From: an uncultured Pseudomonadota bacterium
Lineage (GTDB): Bacteria; Bdellovibrionota_B; Oligoflexia; Oligoflexales; CAIYRB01
Reading direction: 5' to 3'
Length of the DNA: 60,205 nt
Assembly: GCA_903915625.1 (NCBI GenBank)
Contig: CAIWTN010000146.1
Coordinates: 1-60,205 of the forward strand
Shown: in pieces, positions 48,343-56,411 of the stretch
How the letters are laid out: each line of letters begins with the position of its first letter
Numbering within the stretch: position 1 is the stretch's first letter
Made by a program: the position numbers and the translations under genes
The notes under the pieces: model-generated
Databases searched by the model: none
Told to the model about the DNA's origin: nothing
What the model saw: the letters and a program-made list of their open reading frames with translations, nothing else

Positions 48343-48711
48343 ATGCTAAGCAAAAGTTCTCTCGGTAAGAATGTAGATAGTTTGCGTCAAGATGCGAATA
48401 AAATGATCGAGGATCTCGGACGCCTTCAAGCTGAGTTAGTTAAGGAAGGTAAGTTTAAGACGGCTACGTCAGCTGGTCGGATTGCAGACTTGGTGGAAAC
48501 CCGCGTGGATCAGGGGGTTACAGTTGTCACTCAGCAGTTAGAGGCTGTTGCCGATCAAGTGGCAAGAATCAGCGCAGAAACTAAGCGGCAACTTATTGCT
48601 GCCGATGCCACCCTGCATAAAAGGCCATACAGCTATTATGCTCTTGGTGGAGTCTTTGCCGCAGGCGTGATTGGCGGGCTGATGTTGCCTTTTCGCAAGA
48701 AAATGCATTGA
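48343..48711 (+). CDS. Small coiled-coil protein with C-terminal membrane anchor
   Basis: The 122-residue product has a long helical, charged region (residues about 10-85) and one C-terminal hydrophobic helix followed by a basic end (PFRKKMH). The layout resembles the ElaB/YqjD/DUF883 family of ribosome-associated inner membrane proteins, but this is a resemblance only. The start is set by AAGGAGG at 48330-48336; ATG 48340 is too close to it. Confidence 0.75.
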   Translation: MLSKSSLGKNVDSLRQDANKMIEDLGRLQAELVKEGKFKTATSAGRIADLVETRVDQGVTVVTQQLEAVADQVARISAETKRQLIAADATLHKRPYSYYALGGVFAAGVIGGLMLPFRKKMH

Positions 48712-48734
48712 GCCCTAGTTGGTCTAAGCCAGGA

Positions 48735-48760
48735 GGGGCTGACGCTAAAACGCCAGCCTC
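48735..48760. terminator. Possible bidirectional terminator between convergent genes
   Basis: An inverted repeat with ten pairs and one mismatch (GGGGCTGACG / CGCCAGCCTC) around a CTAAAA loop lies between the small coiled-coil gene and the convergent 24-haem cytochrome gene. T-runs on either side are weak, so strength is uncertain. Confidence 0.45.
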
Positions 48761-50841
48761 TAGCGGCCTTTTCCTCGAAAGGAGAACTGATTGTGGCATT
48801 CGCTACAATCTTCAAATCCGGGTAGCGAGTGATTCGGGAACGTCACAGCGCGAGCATCTTTGACGTGGCAACTGGCGCAATCCGTCGGTGTGCCTTGATA
48901 TTGACCATTACGGTGACAGGCATTGCACTCGACCGTGCGGTGAGCGCCAAGCAATGGAAATTGCGACATCGAATGATGGAACGTCGTTGCTTGCCAGGTT
49001 TGCTGCGAGTGACATTGTTGGCACTCGGGTAGTCCGCCGTTGTGATTGTCATCCTTTTTGTGGCAGAAAACACAACGCTCGCTCGCCCCTGTGAGCCGAC
49101 GGTGATTGTCTTGCCCATGGCACTGTTCGCAACTCAAAAGGTTATGAGCGCCAACGAGTAAGAAGTTTTTGTGGAAATCTTCGATCGATGACCAATTGTG
49201 AGACTCCGAATGGCAGTTCATGCAACGAGTGCCTAGTTTGCCTTTGTGTGGATCGTTGTGGCACGCGGCACAACTGCGACTGGAGAGGTCGGGGAATATA
49301 TATTTGCCTTTCGGCTTTTTAGACGGTGGCGGAAATATAATTTTCGTAGGTGTATGGCACTTGATGCAGCCCACGTCACTATGCTTACCGGTAATCGAGT
49401 AGCTGGTTGTGCTGTGGTTAAATGGAAGTCGTTTGAAAAAATCTACTGTCGTGTGACAGTCAGAGCAGGGCTTTTCGGCGAATTTTGAGTGGAACTGGTC
49501 CTTGTGTACGTTGGTGTGGCAGTCGATGCAGTAGTTCTTCTCAGGATGGTCAAATACGAATCGCCCAGCATATTTCACCGGTTTATCGGTCAAAATTTTA
49601 TTTGTTGGTGTGTGACATTTGATGCACTGATCTTTTATTCGCCAGTGATCACCGGTCAATTTGAAGTTGGATTGCTTGTCGTGATTAAACGGCTTGAGCT
49701 CAGAAAATGTTGTGGTGCTGTGGCAGGTTGCGCAGGACTCGGAGGAGTAATCGCGACGGAATTGGTCTTTGTGTATGTTGCTATGGCAGCTGACGCAAAA
49801 CCCAGCATAGTCGTTGGGGAATTTGTAAATCGGCTTACCGTCACGAAGGTGACAAGACTTGCACTCAATGTCTTTATGGCTTCCTGTTAGAGCAAATCTA
49901 GTTAAATGGTTGTGGTCAAAATTCTTCTCTAGTGCAGGGAAGTTTGTCCAGCCACTAGTAACATGACAGTCGGTACATGATTTGGCCTGGAGAGCTGGTG
50001 GGAATTTTCCAATGTGCGGGTTTTTGTGACAGCTTTCACATGTTTTCGTCTTTAAGTCAGGCCAGAGATACTGCCTTTCAGCGTCAGATTTTGCTTTTTG
50101 ATTCGGTATTAACTTGTGACAGTCATTACAACCGACATTGCTATGTTTACCGTCTATTGTGTAGCGAGTTTGAGTGTTGTGATTAAAGCCTTGTTGAGGT
50201 CTTAGGCCACTAAGTTTTTTTGTTTCAAACCAGCTCGCAACTTTCCAAGTATCTTCTCGATGGCATTCATTACAGTCCATTGCTGCCCATTTGCCCTTAA
50301 AGTTATGGACATCGTTTTTAATGTGACAGCTTTTACATGAAGCAACTGGTCCGAAGAATCTGGTGTCATTAGGGCGTATCGCTTTTTCTTTTCGTGTATC
50401 TGTGTGGCATTCAGAGCACTCTAATTTTGCGTGTTCCTTTGTTAGAGGCGATCCGGTCTTCGAATGGTCAAATACTTCGGTTTCAAACTGAACGGCGTCG
50501 TAGTCACGGCCCTGATGATCACTATGACAACCGATGCACGGCTGTGCAGTTAACTTATGAAACGATTTTGGCTTAGCCATGGATTGCCTGATGTCTTTGT
50601 GGCAATCCAGACATTTGCGATCTGGTACGCCTTTGCCAGCGGCATGGCAGCTTAGGCAGTCTGCATGCTCAAGGTCTTTGTGACCCTTCATCAATGGGCC
50701 AGGCGCCAGAAGTTTGTTCAAGATTCCCTGGGAGGAGGGTGCCGGAGCCTTCGCTCTTAATTGAGCTTGTCCATGCGCAGGTGTGAACGCAGAGCAAAGA
50801 GCTATGTAAATCGAAAAGATCAAACTAAGCATCCGCGACAT
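48760..50841 (-). CDS. Secreted 24-haem cytochrome c
   Basis: The 693-residue protein has a signal peptide (cleavage after AHG, residue 24) and 24 CxxCH haem-attachment motifs between residues 62 and 683, about one per 26 residues. A repeated unit with F-[DN]-H, then a Thr-Gly-x-His-like turn, then C-x2-CH recurs at residues about 124, 219, 308, 385, 474 and 621. The extra histidines suit bis-His haems. Such proteins act as periplasmic or trans-envelope electron wires. The start directly abuts the stop of the outer membrane barrel gene. Confidence 0.95.
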   Translation of the reverse strand: MSRMLSLIFSIYIALCSAFTPAHGQAQLRAKAPAPSSQGILNKLLAPGPLMKGHKDLEHADCLSCHAAGKGVPDRKCLDCHKDIRQSMAKPKSFHKLTAQPCIGCHSDHQGRDYDAVQFETEVFDHSKTGSPLTKEHAKLECSECHTDTRKEKAIRPNDTRFFGPVASCKSCHIKNDVHNFKGKWAAMDCNECHREDTWKVASWFETKKLSGLRPQQGFNHNTQTRYTIDGKHSNVGCNDCHKLIPNQKAKSDAERQYLWPDLKTKTCESCHKNPHIGKFPPALQAKSCTDCHVTSGWTNFPALEKNFDHNHLTRFALTGSHKDIECKSCHLRDGKPIYKFPNDYAGFCVSCHSNIHKDQFRRDYSSESCATCHSTTTFSELKPFNHDKQSNFKLTGDHWRIKDQCIKCHTPTNKILTDKPVKYAGRFVFDHPEKNYCIDCHTNVHKDQFHSKFAEKPCSDCHTTVDFFKRLPFNHSTTSYSITGKHSDVGCIKCHTPTKIIFPPPSKKPKGKYIFPDLSSRSCAACHNDPHKGKLGTRCMNCHSESHNWSSIEDFHKNFLLVGAHNLLSCEQCHGQDNHRRLTGASERCVFCHKKDDNHNGGLPECQQCHSQQTWQATTFHHSMSQFPLLGAHRTVECNACHRNGQYQGTPTDCASCHVKDARAVTFPNHSLPGFEDCSECHNQFSFRGKGR

Positions 50842-52242
50842 TTAGAACCTCGTATTTGGCGGAGCTACGTCGCGCAGCGGTGTTAATTCACGACTACCAA
50901 ATCGGTATCCGATCGTCAGCAAGCCGCTGACGATTGTTGTATTTTCGTCTTTTGCTAATTCAGCGCCAGCAGTGGCGAGCAGGGAACGTGTCGCATACAG
51001 TCCGAGATTTGATCCGAGGACGTATTGATTGCGGATTACCCCCGAGTCGCGCTGCTGTTTAGTTACTCGGAGATCGGCATCGATTAGCCATTTATCTGTG
51101 AACCAGTTGATCGTACTGGCTGCAAATAAATCTCGACTAATAAAGCTGCGGCGCGCTCCAAATAAAATGCTTGTGGCTACATGACCAGCGGCAAGTTTGG
51201 TGAAGTTTGCTCCGCCAGATACCTCATATTTACGCAATTTGTCACTCTCTCGCTCGCCAGCTAATAGATTTCCGTCCAGTCGTATAGTCTCATTCAAGCG
51301 ATATTGGCAGGCAATTTTTGCTTGGGAGTAGGCGGTCGGGGGAAGGCGTTCTAAAATGTCCCGTTGATTGCGATATTCGATGAGATCAATGCGTGAAGAG
51401 ATGAATCTCGTCGATAATTTCTCGTTAAAGCGTTTGTCAAACTCGAGCTTTGCATCTTCGATTCGAGCGGCTGGGGTGCCCTGGATGTTGAGGTAGGTCA
51501 CCAACCTATTGTTGGCGCCAAGGTGCAAGAATCCTTGATTTATGAATGCGATGGTGGAGGTGGGCTGGTCGTCGAAATATTGCGGAGCGTAGACCAGCAT
51601 ATTGCTGAGGTATTTCCCTTCGTCCCAGGAGGATGCGTCATTCTGATATACATGGTAAATGCCAGTTTGATAGGCATTGGATCCTATATTTGCGGCGCGT
51701 TCCTCATTGATTTTTGGCCTATAGCCCGCAAATATCCCGACTTTATGATTAGTGGATAGATGAATGCCGCCTTCGAGTCCGTCGTTGTAGATGACGTTGT
51801 TTTCGGCGGGAAGAAAGCGGCCAACAGACCAATAAAGAGATTGCGATGTTCCGGGATCCCTAAGCACTAGTTGTCTTAAACGAGGAGTGTTCTTGCCGGT
51901 TAATTGCAGACGCTGCGTGTCGATTTTGTCAAAAAAATCCTGCCTGTCACGTAGATCAGCCGTGAATTGATACTGTTGGGAGCCGATCCGATTGACATCT
52001 AGAAAGGCTCGACCAGAAAATACGGCACGGTCATTGTCGGTTTTTAATTCACTCTCTCCCGTAATATCTTCACGGGCCAGATATCCACCGCTTAAAAGTG
52101 AGCCATGATATTCATACGAGAGACCCTCCCTAGCCACAAAAAGCGCCAAGATAAGAAATGGCCACGCTAATGTGGCGCGCCTTCGCGGCCGTCGCATCGA
52201 CTCCGTGATAGGCAGGGATGAAATCCAATGCGGTCGCATCAT
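50842..52242 (-). CDS. Outer membrane beta-barrel partner of the multihaem cytochrome
   Basis: The 466-residue protein has a basic, hydrophobic signal sequence. The chain then shows repeated amphipathic strands in the MtrB-like style (YQFTADLRDRQDFF, IGYRFGSRELTPL) and ends in RF, a typical barrel terminus. Its start overlaps the oxidoreductase stop by four bases (ATGA), and its stop abuts the 24-haem gene. By analogy with MtrA-MtrB it may sheath the cytochrome in the outer membrane. Alternative start at ATG 52197. Confidence 0.78.
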   Translation of the reverse strand: MMRPHWISSLPITESMRRPRRRATLAWPFLILALFVAREGLSYEYHGSLLSGGYLAREDITGESELKTDNDRAVFSGRAFLDVNRIGSQQYQFTADLRDRQDFFDKIDTQRLQLTGKNTPRLRQLVLRDPGTSQSLYWSVGRFLPAENNVIYNDGLEGGIHLSTNHKVGIFAGYRPKINEERAANIGSNAYQTGIYHVYQNDASSWDEGKYLSNMLVYAPQYFDDQPTSTIAFINQGFLHLGANNRLVTYLNIQGTPAARIEDAKLEFDKRFNEKLSTRFISSRIDLIEYRNQRDILERLPPTAYSQAKIACQYRLNETIRLDGNLLAGERESDKLRKYEVSGGANFTKLAAGHVATSILFGARRSFISRDLFAASTINWFTDKWLIDADLRVTKQQRDSGVIRNQYVLGSNLGLYATRSLLATAGAELAKDENTTIVSGLLTIGYRFGSRELTPLRDVAPPNTRF

Positions 52243-53615
52243 TCCTTTCCGTGATCCTTCCGCAGCGGTTCACCAAACTTGCGATCGATGTTAATCCCGA
52301 TATCTGTGAAGAACTTAGTTTGCATCTCGGCCCCAATAAAAATGAAAAGATAATCATTTTTTATCGATTGCCGCTGACCTTTGATATTAATCTCTAGTCG
52401 ATCTGCATGGATTTCTTCGACCTTAGTTTCGAACATGATTTTGACAGAGCCATCTTTTTCGGCTTTACGTACCTTTTCTTCGTTCTCAAAATTACACCGA
52501 TCAAAACCTGGTGTTGCGGCGAGTAAAGTGACCGTGTTACCCAGGTGCTTTTTGCACAACATATCCACAGCCTCGGCTGCCGAATTGCCACTGCCAACAA
52601 CCGAAATATGCTGGTTTTTATATTGATCGGGTTCAATCAGATTATAAGTTACTTTAGATAGGCCCTCACCGACCAGGCCAAGCCTTCGCGGTGTTCCTCG
52701 CACGCCAAGGGCAAGTATGACTCGCCTCGCGCTGAGGGGGCCAGCACTAGTCTTGAGGTGAAAGATGCCATCAATACGTTCCAAGGTTTCAAATTTTGTC
52801 TGTTCTTGAACCTTAAGTCCAGTCGACCTGCGAATCTCATCCCAGCGTTGCATTAACTCTTCTTTGCTAACTCGATGGCGTGGAAAACGCATGACGCCCA
52901 CGATAGGGAGCTCTGCAGGTTGAGTCATGATGATTTTCTGGCGAGGAAAGTTAGCAATAGTACCACCAAAGCGCCCCTGTTCTATGCAGAGGTAATTTAG
53001 CCCGGCATGTTGTGCTGCCAGTCCGGCCGCAATACCGGCCGGTCCCGCTCCGATGACTATTAGGTCGAAGTCCGCAGGTGTTTGTGTCTTCCTTTTGAGT
53101 TGCTCTGCAGCATGCTCTACCGCCTTGCGCCCCTGCCTAACGGCATTGCGAATAAGCCCCATTCCGCCCAGTTCACCGGCGATGTAAAGGCCAGAAATAT
53201 TGGTTTCATAATGGCTGGTAATCCGCGGTATGTCTTTGCCCCGCGTTTTAGTTCCGAAAACTAGGGAGATCGCGTCAAATGGGCAGGCTGCCTCACACTC
53301 GCCGTGGCCGACGCATTTTGTTGGTGCCACTAGTGCCGCACGGTGATTAATCAGCTGAAGAATTTCGCCCTCTGGGCACGCACGCACACAAGCACCGCAG
53401 CCAGCGCATAAATTGGGGTCGATGCTGGGATGCAGCGAGTACGGCTCTGCTTGGTTTTTTTCAATCGCGTCTTTTAAAACAATTGAGGCCCGAAGATTGG
53501 ATTTCTTTCGCTTGGATAGAACGGCAAAAGTTAGGCCCAAGATGGCCGTGGCCATCAGGTAGGGTAGATTGTCCGCTGTCCAGTATGAAAGGGCAGGCCA
53601 ATCCAATGCTCTCAT
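52239..53615 (-). CDS. Membrane-anchored FAD-dependent oxidoreductase with ferredoxin domain
   Basis: The 458-residue protein has one N-terminal membrane helix. A two-cluster ferredoxin domain follows (CAGCGACVRACP, then CVGHGECEAACP, in which His stands at the second Cys position). The rest is a TrxR-like FAD/NAD(P)-binding module (GAGPAGIAAG and GSGNSAAEA) without the CxxC redox disulfide. It probably passes electrons between NAD(P)H, Fe-S and a membrane partner. It lies between the b-type-like membrane protein and the barrel. Confidence 0.88.
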   Translation of the reverse strand: MRALDWPALSYWTADNLPYLMATAILGLTFAVLSKRKKSNLRASIVLKDAIEKNQAEPYSLHPSIDPNLCAGCGACVRACPEGEILQLINHRAALVAPTKCVGHGECEAACPFDAISLVFGTKTRGKDIPRITSHYETNISGLYIAGELGGMGLIRNAVRQGRKAVEHAAEQLKRKTQTPADFDLIVIGAGPAGIAAGLAAQHAGLNYLCIEQGRFGGTIANFPRQKIIMTQPAELPIVGVMRFPRHRVSKEELMQRWDEIRRSTGLKVQEQTKFETLERIDGIFHLKTSAGPLSARRVILALGVRGTPRRLGLVGEGLSKVTYNLIEPDQYKNQHISVVGSGNSAAEAVDMLCKKHLGNTVTLLAATPGFDRCNFENEEKVRKAEKDGSVKIMFETKVEEIHADRLEINIKGQRQSIKNDYLFIFIGAEMQTKFFTDIGINIDRKFGEPLRKDHGKE

Positions 53616-53632
53616 CCTCCAAGGTCCGCGAA

Positions 53633-54418
53633 CTATTTAACGCGGAAAAGAAGCTCTGCTACGATATGAATGATCGCCACCACGTACATAAATATCGCAA
53701 ATGGCACGTGAAATGCATGCCAGTATCCCATTAAGCGTTTATATGCATCCAGTAATGCAAGTTTGCGCTGCATGACGCCGTATTCTTTTAACTTGCGACG
53801 AACCGCTCGAGATGTGTGATTGGGGACTGGTAATGGTTTCAAATAAAATTGAATATCACCGAGTATAGAATAAAGGAGGACAGCCGTTAGGCTTCGCGGA
53901 ATCTCCTTCAGCGTATGGCCACCAAAAGCCATTCTTAGGGCCTCGCTTTTTGCTTGGGAAAGCATCGCTGCTGAGTAGGTCTGGGGTGCCACTTGTTGTA
54001 GCTTAACAAAGCCTTGATCGTAGGTGCGAAGTTGACCTTTCAAAGATCCTCGTTGCTGGAGAATTTGAGTATAGAAATAGCGACCGACGACACCGCTGAT
54101 GGCGCTGATCATCATACTCCAGAAGCTGATTGCGACTAGGCCGTTGACGCGAAAATTCGAATGAAAAACGATTAAAGTAGGGCCAATTAAGCCACAAAAT
54201 ATGTGGAAATTTAACCATCCTGAAACGTTGCCTAGGTCTTTGATGGCCGGTATTTTCTTGCGCAGGATGTAGAGGTTGGTGAGGCAAATGACGCTAAAGC
54301 CGCCCCATCCTAACCAATAACGGAAATATTCGCCGCTGCGTGCATTATACCAAGGCCAGGCTGCCGTCAGCACAACCAGCAGAGTGAACCAAAATAAAAC
54401 GTAAAGACGCGTGCCCAA
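53633..54418 (-). CDS. Cytochrome b-like integral membrane protein
   Basis: The 261-residue protein has about five hydrophobic helices. Histidines lie in pairs at helix positions (NFHIFCG and VFHSNF; WHAFHVPF and IIHIVAE), as in di-haem cytochrome b561/NapC-like quinol proteins. A charged cytoplasmic loop occupies about residues 130-220. Haem content is inferred from the His pattern. It is the first gene of the four-gene electron-transfer operon and the likely quinone-side partner. Confidence 0.72.
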   Translation of the reverse strand: MGTRLYVLFWFTLLVVLTAAWPWYNARSGEYFRYWLGWGGFSVICLTNLYILRKKIPAIKDLGNVSGWLNFHIFCGLIGPTLIVFHSNFRVNGLVAISFWSMMISAISGVVGRYFYTQILQQRGSLKGQLRTYDQGFVKLQQVAPQTYSAAMLSQAKSEALRMAFGGHTLKEIPRSLTAVLLYSILGDIQFYLKPLPVPNHTSRAVRRKLKEYGVMQRKLALLDAYKRLMGYWHAFHVPFAIFMYVVAIIHIVAELLFRVK

Positions 54419-54716
54419 TCGATCACCTTGTTCTCAGCCAATGCTTGTCCCGGAGTATAACATGGTAAGAAGTGAAAAAACTTCTGTAAAATCGGATTGA
54501 TCGGTAAAGCCCTCGTGGCATGCCTAAGCATGCGTTGGGAATGTAAAACTGGCTGGATGCCTAGCTTAATTGAGATTTTTTGGGGTCCGTATGACTATGT
54601 CGAGATTCTTTGGTTAAACATTTTCTGTCTTGGTGCCGATATGCCCATTGTATGTGGGCTAAGACTGGGCCAACCGTGTCAACCGCTCAGTAAACCACCT
54701 TAAAGGAGTAGATTCG
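54419..54716. other. Divergent intergenic region
   Basis: This 298-bp gap must hold the promoters of the electron-transfer operon (leftwards) and of the lipoprotein cytochrome (rightwards). I see no convincing -35/-10 pair. Two GCATGC hexamers separated by CTAA occur at 54518-54533. An open frame at 54497-54703 has no family resemblance and is probably not a gene. AAGGAG precedes the ATG at 54717. Confidence 0.5.
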
Positions 54717-55082
54717 ATGAATGCCTTGCTGATCCGTTCGTTAGTTCTTAGCGGTGCCGTGGTTGGTGTACTCACAGCCGGAGGCTGCAGTTCATCTAGC
54801 GGTTCCTCACCGGCGCCGGCGTCTCCAACCACTCCAACCACGACGACAGCCGCCTTGTCGGCTGCTTTTGGCACCAATTGCAAATCTTGCCACGGCAAGG
54901 ATGGCGCCACGAACTTTGGCTCAAAAGGTGCTCTCAAGGGCAGCACGGCCTTCACCACGGCGAGTTGGAAGGCGGCGGTCCGTAACGGTCAGGGCACGAT
55001 GCCGGCCTTTGAAACCGCGGATTATTCCGATGTCGATATGAAAGCTGACTACAAAGTGTTAACCGGCAAGATCTGGCCGTAA
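54717..55082 (+). CDS. Monohaem cytochrome c lipoprotein
   Basis: The 121-residue protein has a lipoprotein signal (AGGC, Cys24) and a Ser/Pro/Thr-rich linker (residues 25-44). The class I cytochrome c domain has CKSCH (residues 55-59) and a TMPAF segment supplying the probable Met ligand. It is divergent from the 24-haem operon and could be its periplasmic redox partner. Confidence 0.9.
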   Translation: MNALLIRSLVLSGAVVGVLTAGGCSSSSGSSPAPASPTTPTTTTAALSAAFGTNCKSCHGKDGATNFGSKGALKGSTAFTTASWKAAVRNGQGTMPAFETADYSDVDMKADYKVLTGKIWP

Positions 55083-55142: not shown

Positions 55143-56411
55143 CTAGAAGCTAAGCTCGCACGATTTTGCCCGTGCGAACGGCAGGTGCGAGGTTTTATTT
55201 TCGTGCCATTTAAAAGTTGGATCGGTGACCGACCAGCTAAGGCCGCCTGCATAGGCGTTGCCAAGCCAACTTGTGAGCATCTCGTGTACGCTTGCTCCGG
55301 TTAGGCCATTCAGAGGAAATTCACCCATCACCACTGGTTTATCGCCGATTCCTAAATCAGAGGGTGATCTGTGATACGGCCAATACTGATTCACCCAGTC
55401 GTAGATATGGAATTGATGGAAGTCCAAGTCTAAATTGCGCCAAGCATGTTTCCACTTAACTGCTGCAGCACCAACGGATACTAGCGCCTTGCTTTTGGCT
55501 CTCAAAGTAGAGCCGACTTCGGCGAGAAATGTTTGCATCTGCTCGTGACTCACGGTCTCAAGTCCGGCTATGGGATCGAAATCCGGATCCCCGTATAAAC
55601 TTTTGCCCCTGATTGCCCACTCAGGCTCATTGATGAGGTCCCAGGCGATCAAGCGCTTCTTATTGGGGCTTGCTTCTGCTGCGGCAGCCATAGGTGCAAT
55701 TACGTTATCCAAGAGAGCCTGCCGTTTCGCTGCATCGACGACTATGGGGCGAAGGCTCGGGATAACGCGAGCAGCAGCGCCTGAGGACGGTCTGAACGCA
55801 TCAAACGAGAAAATTGTTAACATTAGGTACAAATCATTGCGCTCGGCCAACTCTAAGGCTGCGTTAAGGTCCGCAATAAAACTGCCCCCCAGACCCCTGG
55901 GAGTGCCGTTCGAATCTAAAATAACACCATCGCCTCGAAGATCGGGGAAGATCCACCAGCGTACTACGTTGGTGCCGTGTGCCTTCATATCAGCAAGCTC
56001 GTTGGCGATGGCTGGGGTGCCAGCCACGCCAGCACTACCCCATTGACTGCCGCCGCCAAAGTCGCTGCCGAAGTTGTGCCAAGCATAGTTTACGCCGTGC
56101 ATAAAACGTCGTTTGCATTGCCAGGTGATGCCAGCCGGCACGGGACAAGTGTCGACATAGTTTGCGCACTCAGGGTGATCGGCAAGATATCGTTGATACC
56201 TCATTTGATGTTTGTAGCTAGCCGAATCGTGAGTTAACTGTGTTGAGTCTGATTCGTCGGAATTCTCTGCTTTTTTATTTTCGGAAACGCTTTCTTGAGG
56301 GCGCGTTTCTCCCCGATTGGCGGCGTTCTTTGGCCGTTGTCCAGAGCAGTTGATGACCATCATTCCTGCCACCCAAAGAGCAATCGTACCTAGTCTTGGA
56401 CGAGTCATCAT
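55143..56411 (-). CDS. Glycoside hydrolase family 5-like lipoprotein
   Basis: The 422-residue protein has a lipobox VINC (Cys22) and a polar linker to about residue 70. A TIM-barrel-like domain follows with the GH5/clan A signatures: HGVNYAW near the start, WDLINEPEW (acid/base Glu) and VVMGEFPLNG (nucleophile Glu). These support a beta-glycanase, cellulase- or mannanase-like. Substrate unknown. AAGGAA precedes the ATG. Confidence 0.82.
   Translation of the reverse strand: MMTRPRLGTIALWVAGMMVINCSGQRPKNAANRGETRPQESVSENKKAENSDESDSTQLTHDSASYKHQMRYQRYLADHPECANYVDTCPVPAGITWQCKRRFMHGVNYAWHNFGSDFGGGSQWGSAGVAGTPAIANELADMKAHGTNVVRWWIFPDLRGDGVILDSNGTPRGLGGSFIADLNAALELAERNDLYLMLTIFSFDAFRPSSGAAARVIPSLRPIVVDAAKRQALLDNVIAPMAAAAEASPNKKRLIAWDLINEPEWAIRGKSLYGDPDFDPIAGLETVSHEQMQTFLAEVGSTLRAKSKALVSVGAAAVKWKHAWRNLDLDFHQFHIYDWVNQYWPYHRSPSDLGIGDKPVVMGEFPLNGLTGASVHEMLTSWLGNAYAGGLSWSVTDPTFKWHENKTSHLPFARAKSCELSF

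Follow-up and report, generated by a model that had tools for sequence, protein, structure and literature searches.

A 60,205-nucleotide stretch of DNA from an uncultured Bdellovibrionota_B bacterium (contig CAIWTN010000146.1 of assembly GCA_903915625.1; hereafter the window) carries four adjacent minus-strand genes, which we label MEM, FAD, BAR and CYT. MEM (53633..54418, 261 aa, TTG start) is a membrane protein of the same type as the inner-membrane protein (IMP) of the porin-cytochrome complex PCC3; FAD (52239..53615, 458 aa) is an Fe-S/FAD/NAD(P) protein with two cluster motifs and a FAD/NAD(P) domain; BAR (50842..52242, 466 aa) is a predicted 22-strand outer-membrane beta-barrel; and CYT (48760..50841, 693 aa) is a multihaem "wire" with 24 CXXCH motifs in eight triheme modules. 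Together the four genes probably form an electric wire that spans the whole cell envelope and connects an enzyme of NAD(P)H type in the cytoplasm with a pore in the outer membrane.

A first-pass annotation, made from the letters of the DNA, had described one unit encoding a b-type-like membrane protein, a FAD/ferredoxin enzyme, an outer-membrane barrel and a 24-haem cytochrome. The four open reading frames (ORFs) lie where it had put them, all on the minus strand, and its assignments of the products agree with the evidence given below. Its statement that the genes overlap or abut is close to correct: as ORFs, FAD and BAR share 4 bases and BAR abuts CYT, but 17 bases separate MEM from FAD. An internal ATG of BAR at about 52197 has, by eye, the better ribosome site, and with that start FAD and BAR would no longer overlap. 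On the left lies a convergent ORF that ends at 48711, and on the right a divergent ORF begins at 54717. These neighbours delimit the four genes as a single unit, as had been proposed.

Components of the four-gene unit

MEM contains the motifs W68-x3-H72-x13-H86, S108GVVG112 and W233-x3-H237-x13-H251. H72, H86, H237 and H251 are invariant among 23 aligned MEM proteins, which share no invariant cysteine. Two HX13H pairs around SGXXG were found in 38/38 MEM proteins, one from Emticicia (see below) included, and the full pair of WX3HX13H motifs with SGXXG in 34 of the 38, the other four lacking the first tryptophan only. He et al. (2017, PMC5566968) ascribe to the PCC3 and PCC4 IMPs five transmembrane (TM) helices, with SGXXG on TM4 and WX3HX13H on TM3 and TM5, and two inferred b haems, and compare the signature with ferric reductase/NOX. 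All elements of the PCC3 signature, SGXXG between two WX3HX13H motifs, are thus present in the window protein. PCC3 IMPs have ∼300 aa and five helices; MEM has 261 aa (relatives mostly 269–297), with four of the five helices flagged. In a simple hydropathy scan, at the threshold used, TM1, TM3, TM4 and TM5 were flagged in the window protein; TM2 (about 37–55) was flagged not there but in most relatives. Judged by the positive charges that follow TM2 and TM4, the long loop would lie in the cytoplasm, with the two haems on opposite sides of the membrane. The window MEM matches nothing in Pfam or NCBIfam at E≤0.1, although 18 of 23 relatives weakly match DUF4405 (best E 0.00057). A profile search of the PDB with MEM gave three matches, which at E 0.65–2.6 we took as chance. 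CXXCH is absent from MEM, FAD and BAR alike.

The FAD protein begins with a hydrophobic segment (residues 16–34) followed by RKK, and such a segment near the N-terminus was flagged in 23 of 26 FAD proteins; its domains should therefore face the cytoplasm. Two ferredoxin-type motifs follow. Cluster 1 reads CxxCxxCxxxC, and cluster 2 reads CxxHxxCxxxC in 38/38 proteins (residues 101–111 in the window, 53283–53315), a possible His-ligated or 3Fe cluster. The glycine motifs for FAD and NAD(P) are conserved among aligned relatives. Family searches returned Pyr_redox_3 (8.2e-41) together with two-cluster ferredoxin models; among the matches listed (the best 25 of 29 families, with Pyr_redox_3 the best) there was no FNR-type family. 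The best PDB sequences, 7a76 and 7a7b, are thioredoxin-reductase/Bdr flavoproteins.

This kinship with the thioredoxin-reductase superfamily, in a protein coded near a cytochrome that needs many reduced CXXCH motifs, could mean that FAD and MEM carry out thiol reduction for cytochrome c maturation in the manner of CcdA/DsbD, with no electron export at all; that ccsA is a neighbour in Emticicia speaks for the same view. We consider it very improbable. The redox-active CXXC of thioredoxin reductase is not present, none of the 26 FAD proteins compared has a CXXC outside cluster 1, and MEM has invariant histidine pairs instead of invariant cysteines. A thiol-reducing role of FAD was rejected on the absence of that CXXC.

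The domain order is also unusual. In thioredoxin reductase and Bdr it is FAD – NAD(P) – FAD, whereas here, on uneven evidence, the C-terminal FAD motif comes before the Rossmann fold. The thioredoxin reductase and YpdA family models end 49 and 45 positions early on the protein, and the missing C-terminal motif, ETNxxGLYIAGELGG, sits between the ferredoxin part and the Rossmann fold. In a profile search with the moved segment all 20 rows at E≤1 were pyridine-nucleotide flavoproteins by name (best E 0.01, weak singly), counting the P64K and "surface protein" rows, which we take to be such flavoproteins. A rearranged query aligned over a greater length in two of three PDB structures and hardly changed the best one. 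From the segment profile and the rearranged alignments, evidence that is uneven and short of proof, we regard the domain as likely to be circularly permuted.

CYT has exactly 24 CXXCH and neither CX3CH nor CX4CH motifs, with 28.9 aa per haem, and Cytochrome_C7 matches it in eight stretches (5.7e-23). After what looks by eye like a signal peptide it carries the signature QGILNKLLAPGPL, common to the wire family; a similar signature stands shortly after a signal-peptide-like start in 35 ORFs. Its 32 histidines outside CXXCH recur with a period of three: 2–3 free histidines per module before the first haem, 0–1 before the second and 1–2 before the third. Such a pattern is what eight triheme modules would show if most haems were bis-His ligated. 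For comparison we used 32 complete relatives, defined by both spacing fingerprints and a closed ORF; seven wire ORFs that miss one end or run open at a contig end were left out of these counts. The complete wires have 21 (1), 24 (6), 27 (4), 30 (9), 33 (7) or 36 (5) haems, a multiple of three in 32/32 cases, at 26.4–30.1 aa per haem. Spacing at the ends is nearly constant, and the middle lengthens by whole modules. A comparable arrangement is described in PMC10138318 for Geobacter GSU1996, a chain of four triheme domains with 12 haems, 12 nm long according to the title of a structure paper cited there. By extrapolation an eight-module CYT would be roughly 24 nm long. The AlphaFold2 model of CYT (pLDDT 45, pTM 0.20) was discarded, and neither the shape of the wire nor its contact with the barrel was read from it.

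The AlphaFold2 model of BAR (pLDDT 79) is a barrel of outer-membrane type, with 22 strands by DSSP. Its best structural score (Z 19.1) is to Occ porins, while the longest alignments (∼330–356 residues) were obtained with TonB-dependent receptors and barrels like them. Occ porins have 18 strands, TonB-dependent receptors and similar barrels 22. On geometrical grounds a barrel of this size could accommodate roughly one triheme domain as a plug. BAR matched no Pfam or NCBIfam family at E≤0.1; the best 50 structural matches listed contain no MtrB chain, which excludes nothing. Many BAR proteins have a PxRDxAPP-like tail after the last predicted strand (in the window the BAR C-terminus, 50842–50910), a possible docking point for the wire.

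Recurrence in related genomes and on plasmids

Of 56 related genomes 12 contain MEM, among them 6/6 of its own genus. A scan with FAD gave 26 loci, of which four are archaeal ferredoxin-only matches and 22 (L024–L045) come from metagenome-assembled genomes (MAGs) with labels that include Bdellovibrionales, Oligoflexia, Bdellovibrio, Bacteriovorax, Deltaproteobacteria and Proteobacteria; most carriers of the unit are MAGs. One of them (L024, from Lake Pavin sediment) is a sister of the window genome, its MEM being 95% identical. With the window counted, and second copies and the duplicates L001–L012, L024, L025 and L032 dropped, 45 distinct primary loci remain. All four genes lie within the fetched stretch in 26 of these, and contig ends truncate many of the remaining 19. 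The grouping of the four genes is not due to chance.

Linkage is tightest between BAR and the wire gene, which overlap or abut in 36/36 loci with both (second copies included). Both MEM and FAD occur in 33 primary loci, at most 250 bases apart in 23 and 0.9–6.8 kb apart in 10. Their order and strand relative to the barrel-wire pair are shuffled among lineages, while the content is kept (L026–L045, L118–L131).

Co-occurrence was assessed in 368 genomes from the phylum of genome G062, the best 2–6 candidates per genome being scored. FAD was found at E≤1e-60 in 27/368, BAR at E≤1e-20 in 28/368, and MEM at E≤1e-40 in 27/368 plus one cut at a contig end. CYT reached E≤1e-100 in 24, all within the 28 BAR genomes; this cut-off missed four of the 28, of which G065 and G075 hold a complete wire (L034 and L044). 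FAD is present in 27 of the 28 BAR genomes, but only nine of them are independent, since 19 had supplied loci selected through FAD. The nine independent genomes, each with a strong MEM match, have BAR and CYT in 9/9 and FAD in 8/9. We give these figures without a probability, since the genomes share ancestry. Weaker MEM-like matches (E 7e-18 to 3e-4) appeared in ten further genomes; in the three that were opened, a 7-haem cytochrome lies beside the match in two, and one shows no multihaem gene.

A second full-length FAD is present in each of the six genomes of the genus, every one of which gave a single MEM match. The six second-copy regions hold FAD, BAR and CYT, with a 4-haem ORF in four of them, and the five complete second-copy wires have 36 haems each. 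In the window genome this second unit (L080, G000:C150:31000-50216) consists of FAD, a 4-haem lipoprotein-like cytochrome, a barrel and a 36-haem wire, without MEM; no third CYT-type locus was found there at E≤1e-4.

A further gene with at least four CXXCH occurs in 27 of 37 BAR loci. Among 30 such ORFs with a readable start, which have from 4 to at least 39 CXXCH, 28 show by eye a hydrophobic start followed by a cysteine, and 20 carry a cysteine, PxV and a histidine, in this order, ahead of the first haem. The two exceptions without a lipoprotein-like start are the 7-haem proteins of L128 and L129. We read the further ORFs as candidates for the surface lipoprotein cytochrome of PCC3. One unit (L123:3074-5971) lies beside a gene for a 37-CXXCH cytochrome of 965 aa in which successive spacings measure exactly 23 residues over a stretch.

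The wire might buffer electrons as a periplasmic store or serve a redox system within the envelope, the barrel being a passive porin: the triheme-module wire GSU1996 is discussed as a capacitor in part of PMC10138318, and the window operon has no surface multihaem cytochrome. We consider this quite unlikely, given that BAR adjoins the wire gene in all 36 loci with both and that the further multihaem genes in most BAR loci are mostly lipoprotein-like.

Outside this group of MAGs, a related row was found on plasmid pEMTOL02 of Emticicia oligotrophica DSM 17448, a cultured member of Bacteroidota: ccsA, MEM, FAD, CYT, a 40-CXXCH cytochrome (1001 aa, L132:18840-21845) and a 538-aa protein. The Emticicia MEM has the same motifs as the window MEM. 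Its FAD is 39.9% identical over 94%, with one cluster 1 cysteine replaced by serine, and its CYT 28.9% identical over 89% (E 1e-59). The 538-aa protein is a possible barrel. The gene row thus indicates that the flavoprotein accompanies MEM and the wire across phyla. The annotated cytochrome-maturation gene ccsA (L132:11683-14769) stands directly before the conduit genes.

Among plasmids, 51 records matched CYT, of which 20 were listed. The four regions opened besides that of Emticicia contain a small module of another kind, in which a 7-haem cytochrome occurs without an annotated porin, and were set aside: Salinimonas (L133:3992-7478), Methylophaga (L134:4049-7403), Qipengyuania (L141:4291-7720) and Sphingobium (L142:4351-7708). 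These modules, in Alpha- and Gammaproteobacteria, sit beside metal-resistance genes in all four regions. Each encodes a 241–252-aa membrane protein with two HX13H pairs (4/4; SGXXG in 3/4) and a 7-haem cytochrome (4/4), three of them also DUF1622, and the protein annotated as "2Fe-2S" is by Pfam an FNR-type FAD/NAD protein with Fer2 in 2/2 tested. The module looks like a porin-free relative of the inner half of the conduit. The pairing of an HX13H membrane protein with a flavoprotein has therefore recurred with an unlike, FNR-type neighbour in 4/4 plasmid regions, and the occurrence of flavoproteins of two unlike types next to membrane proteins of this sort supports the proposed flavin-to-haem b step. 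A FAD match in Pseudoalteromonas sits among glycosyltransferase genes and was rejected.

Proposed electron path and comparison with known conduits

We read the four genes, with a probability of roughly 60%, as an extracellular electron conduit that resembles PCC3 but has an enzyme of its own on the NAD(P)H side. Gene content, recurrence, motifs, triheme periodicity and the predicted barrel fold are observed; the cofactors, the topology, each transfer step, the direction, the substrate and any link to quinones are inferred. The FAD protein, anchored in the inner membrane and facing the cytoplasm, would accept electrons from NAD(P)H and lead them over its flavin and two Fe-S clusters to MEM. MEM would pass them across the inner membrane by two b haems, that of H72/H237 on the cytoplasmic side and that of H86/H251 on the periplasmic side. 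The eight triheme modules of CYT, arranged in a row, would carry them across the periplasm, and BAR would provide the passage through the outer membrane. The overall path would thus run from NAD(P)H to FAD, Fe-S, inner b haem, outer b haem, triheme wire, barrel and surface acceptor. The outer face would be completed, at most related loci, by a lipoprotein-like multihaem cytochrome on the surface, with 4 to at least 39 haems. Since the window operon has none, the outlet here would be the CYT/BAR end, the lipoprotein-like monohaem protein described below or a product of the second locus. We favour outward electron disposal as the likely direction: NAD(P)H is a strong donor, so that passage to the outside is redox-downhill, and electrons leaving the cytoplasm would follow the membrane potential, as they do in NADPH oxidases.

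The closest published system is the little-studied PCC3. The parts attributed to it in PMC10734462 and PMC12442390 are an extracellular cytochrome, a porin, a periplasmic cytochrome and an inner-membrane protein; He et al. (2017, PMC5566968) describe a porin, the IMP with its two inferred b haems, and a periplasmic cytochrome whose haem number has a median of 21, at 22–39 residues per haem. Periplasmic subunits of Gallionellaceae have 21, 24 and 27 haems (PMC10734462), and the organisms named in the parts of these papers on PCC3 are Sideroxydans, Leptothrix and Gallionellaceae (PMC5566968, PMC10734462, PMC12442390). The first-pass annotation had taken known conduits to use about 10 haems and had proposed a new kind of conduit. 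The former is out of date in view of the PCC3 median (PMC5566968), and the latter gives way to a variant, since PCC3, known from genomes since 2017 and first described for iron oxidisers, has the same core: a porin, a 21-, 24- or 27-haem periplasmic cytochrome (here 21–36) with a low ratio of residues per haem, and a protein with two WX3HX13H motifs and SGXXG. A further, presumably surface-exposed multihaem cytochrome is shared with most related loci; because it is absent from the window operon, we speak of a PCC3-like variant and not of a plain PCC3 member.

The differences begin with the flavoprotein. A dedicated membrane-anchored Fe-S/FAD/NAD(P) protein belongs to the present unit, and the earlier remark that known conduits have no such enzyme agrees with the PCC3 descriptions examined: "FAD" and "ferredoxin" are absent from the main texts of He et al. 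(PMC5566968) and PMC12442390, and in PMC10734462 "ferredoxin" occurs 15 times, never with PCC3 in the 12 of 17 places listed. PCC3 porins tend to be larger, with up to 42 TM regions (a tendency and no fixed number) against 22 strands in the BAR model. The PCC3 hosts in the main text of He et al. are Alpha-, Beta- and Gammaproteobacteria, whereas here they are Bdellovibrionota-type MAGs and a Bacteroidota plasmid. New with respect to the PCC3 descriptions examined are the dedicated flavoprotein, which co-occurs with the other parts in Bdellovibrionota-type genomes, stands between MEM and CYT on the Emticicia plasmid and has a CxxHxxCxxxC second cluster and a probably permuted FAD domain; the wire length, which varies by whole triheme modules from 21 to 36 haems; a barrel predicted to be smaller; and the absence of a surface multihaem cytochrome from the window operon, though most related loci have one. 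No publication on the four-gene unit in Bdellovibrionota was found among the papers listed by a search that excluded subscription papers and preprints; the MtrAB homologues of magnetotactic Bdellovibrionota are by their description in PMC13200544 a different system. The Bdellovibrionota-type group is known mainly for aerobic predators.

Other systems share single features with the unit. PCC4 has an IMP of the same motif layout and other redox proteins, and in one subgroup an Fe-S gene stands beside the IMP gene, but it uses three periplasmic cytochromes (4, 5 and 10 haems) where the present unit has one long triheme-module wire; the PCC3 and PCC4 IMPs show no significant overall homology according to the relevant passage of He et al. 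(PMC5566968). MtrAB, MtoAB and PioAB likewise join a barrel to a periplasmic cytochrome across the outer membrane; membership in MtrAB was rejected, as CYT has 24 haems and reaches 54.8 bits against a cut-off of 192.2 with the DmsE/MtrA decahaem family TIGR03508. GSU1996 shares the tandem triheme domains, themselves comparable to triheme c-type cytochromes (in the portion of PMC10138318 that deals with it), but has 12 haems in four domains, whereas CYT has 24 and is accompanied by an adjoining barrel gene, MEM and FAD. Wires of the GSU1996 type have one His-Met haem in each domain. In NADPH oxidases and ferric reductases (NOX/FRD), too, a flavoprotein feeds b haems at two HX13H pairs (for FRD as mentioned in PMC5566968); here, in contrast, the flavoprotein is a separate gene of TrxR/Bdr type and not of FNR type, two Fe-S clusters are added and the acceptor would be a haem wire.

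The main rival is the quinone model that He et al. (2017, PMC5566968) outline for the IMP. Applied here, it would make MEM a quinol-oxidising or quinone-reducing cytochrome b that connects the quinone pool with the outside, either to take up electrons from Fe(II)-type donors or to export them, with FAD as a side input. Both b-haem sites needed for such an enzyme are present in MEM, and the description in PMC12442390 has PCC3 as four genes without a flavoprotein; the same paper, in the section concerned, still calls the function of PCC3 untested in 2025. The electron exchange of PCC3 at the inner membrane is a proposal. The near-constant company of FAD (27 of 28 BAR genomes, 19 of them chosen through FAD, 8 of 9 others, and Emticicia) argues against a mere side input, and Fe(II) uptake straight to NAD(P)+ would be uphill by established thermodynamics. 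On balance we think the quinone-linked version unlikely. A stricter form of the NAD(P)H-fed conduit is a tentative idea, which we rate as possible but doubtful: a quinone-free, split NADPH oxidase in which a circularly permuted ferredoxin-flavoprotein supplies a diheme membrane protein, and this in turn a single-chain wire that ends in the 22-strand barrel, with the wire, its length set in whole triheme modules, as a molecular ruler of the periplasm. If true, this would join cytoplasmic NAD(P)H to the cell exterior without a diffusible carrier. The nearly always present NAD(P)H-type partner offers an entry point to the electron source side of such conduits and to their need for quinone, and the whole-module lengths raise the question of module number versus periplasm width.

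It should be noted that several observations weigh against the NAD(P)H-fed conduit. Quinones could be the exchange partners of MEM, as in the proposal of He et al., which would make FAD one input among others, and the contact between CYT and BAR is putative. The window operon and its sister L013 lack a surface multihaem cytochrome, and the host has a haem-copper oxidase, so respiration through the conduit is not required. Linkage is not universal: MEM is alone in L125 (19.9 kb, genome G134), with FAD, BAR and CYT together on another contig; in G071 FAD (L040) and MEM (L130) each stand alone; in L042 (G073) BAR and CYT lie ∼12 kb from FAD-MEM; and MEM was not seen in the six second-copy regions, two of which (L081, L084) are cut by contig ends. 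The Emticicia CYT has 23 CXXCH, no multiple of three, and the 538-aa protein matches the BAR profile weakly (23 bits, bias 20, in a search of eight proteins). Finally, the likeness to PCC3 rests on published descriptions and not on Sideroxydans or Leptothrix sequences.

Flanking genes

Divergent from the unit, a plus-strand ORF at 54717..55082 encodes a monohaem c-type cytochrome (Cytochrome_CBB3, 3.7e-11) that is lipoprotein-like by eye. A monohaem gene occupies the same divergent place in 5/5 genus loci with a visible flank, L014–L017 among them, and its product is a possible partner of the conduit. The intergenic stretch between the operon and this gene (54419..54716) is the presumed promoter region. 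It has two promoter-like matches on the minus strand; across the 6.3 kb scanned there were seven, equal to the shuffle mean of 7.2. Terminator-like sites numbered 13 against a shuffle mean of 6.5, with none in the gap 48712–48759, and no use was made of them. Beyond the monohaem gene a 422-aa ORF (55143–56411), with no Pfam match at E≤0.01, appears by eye to encode a secreted, glycosidase-like protein.

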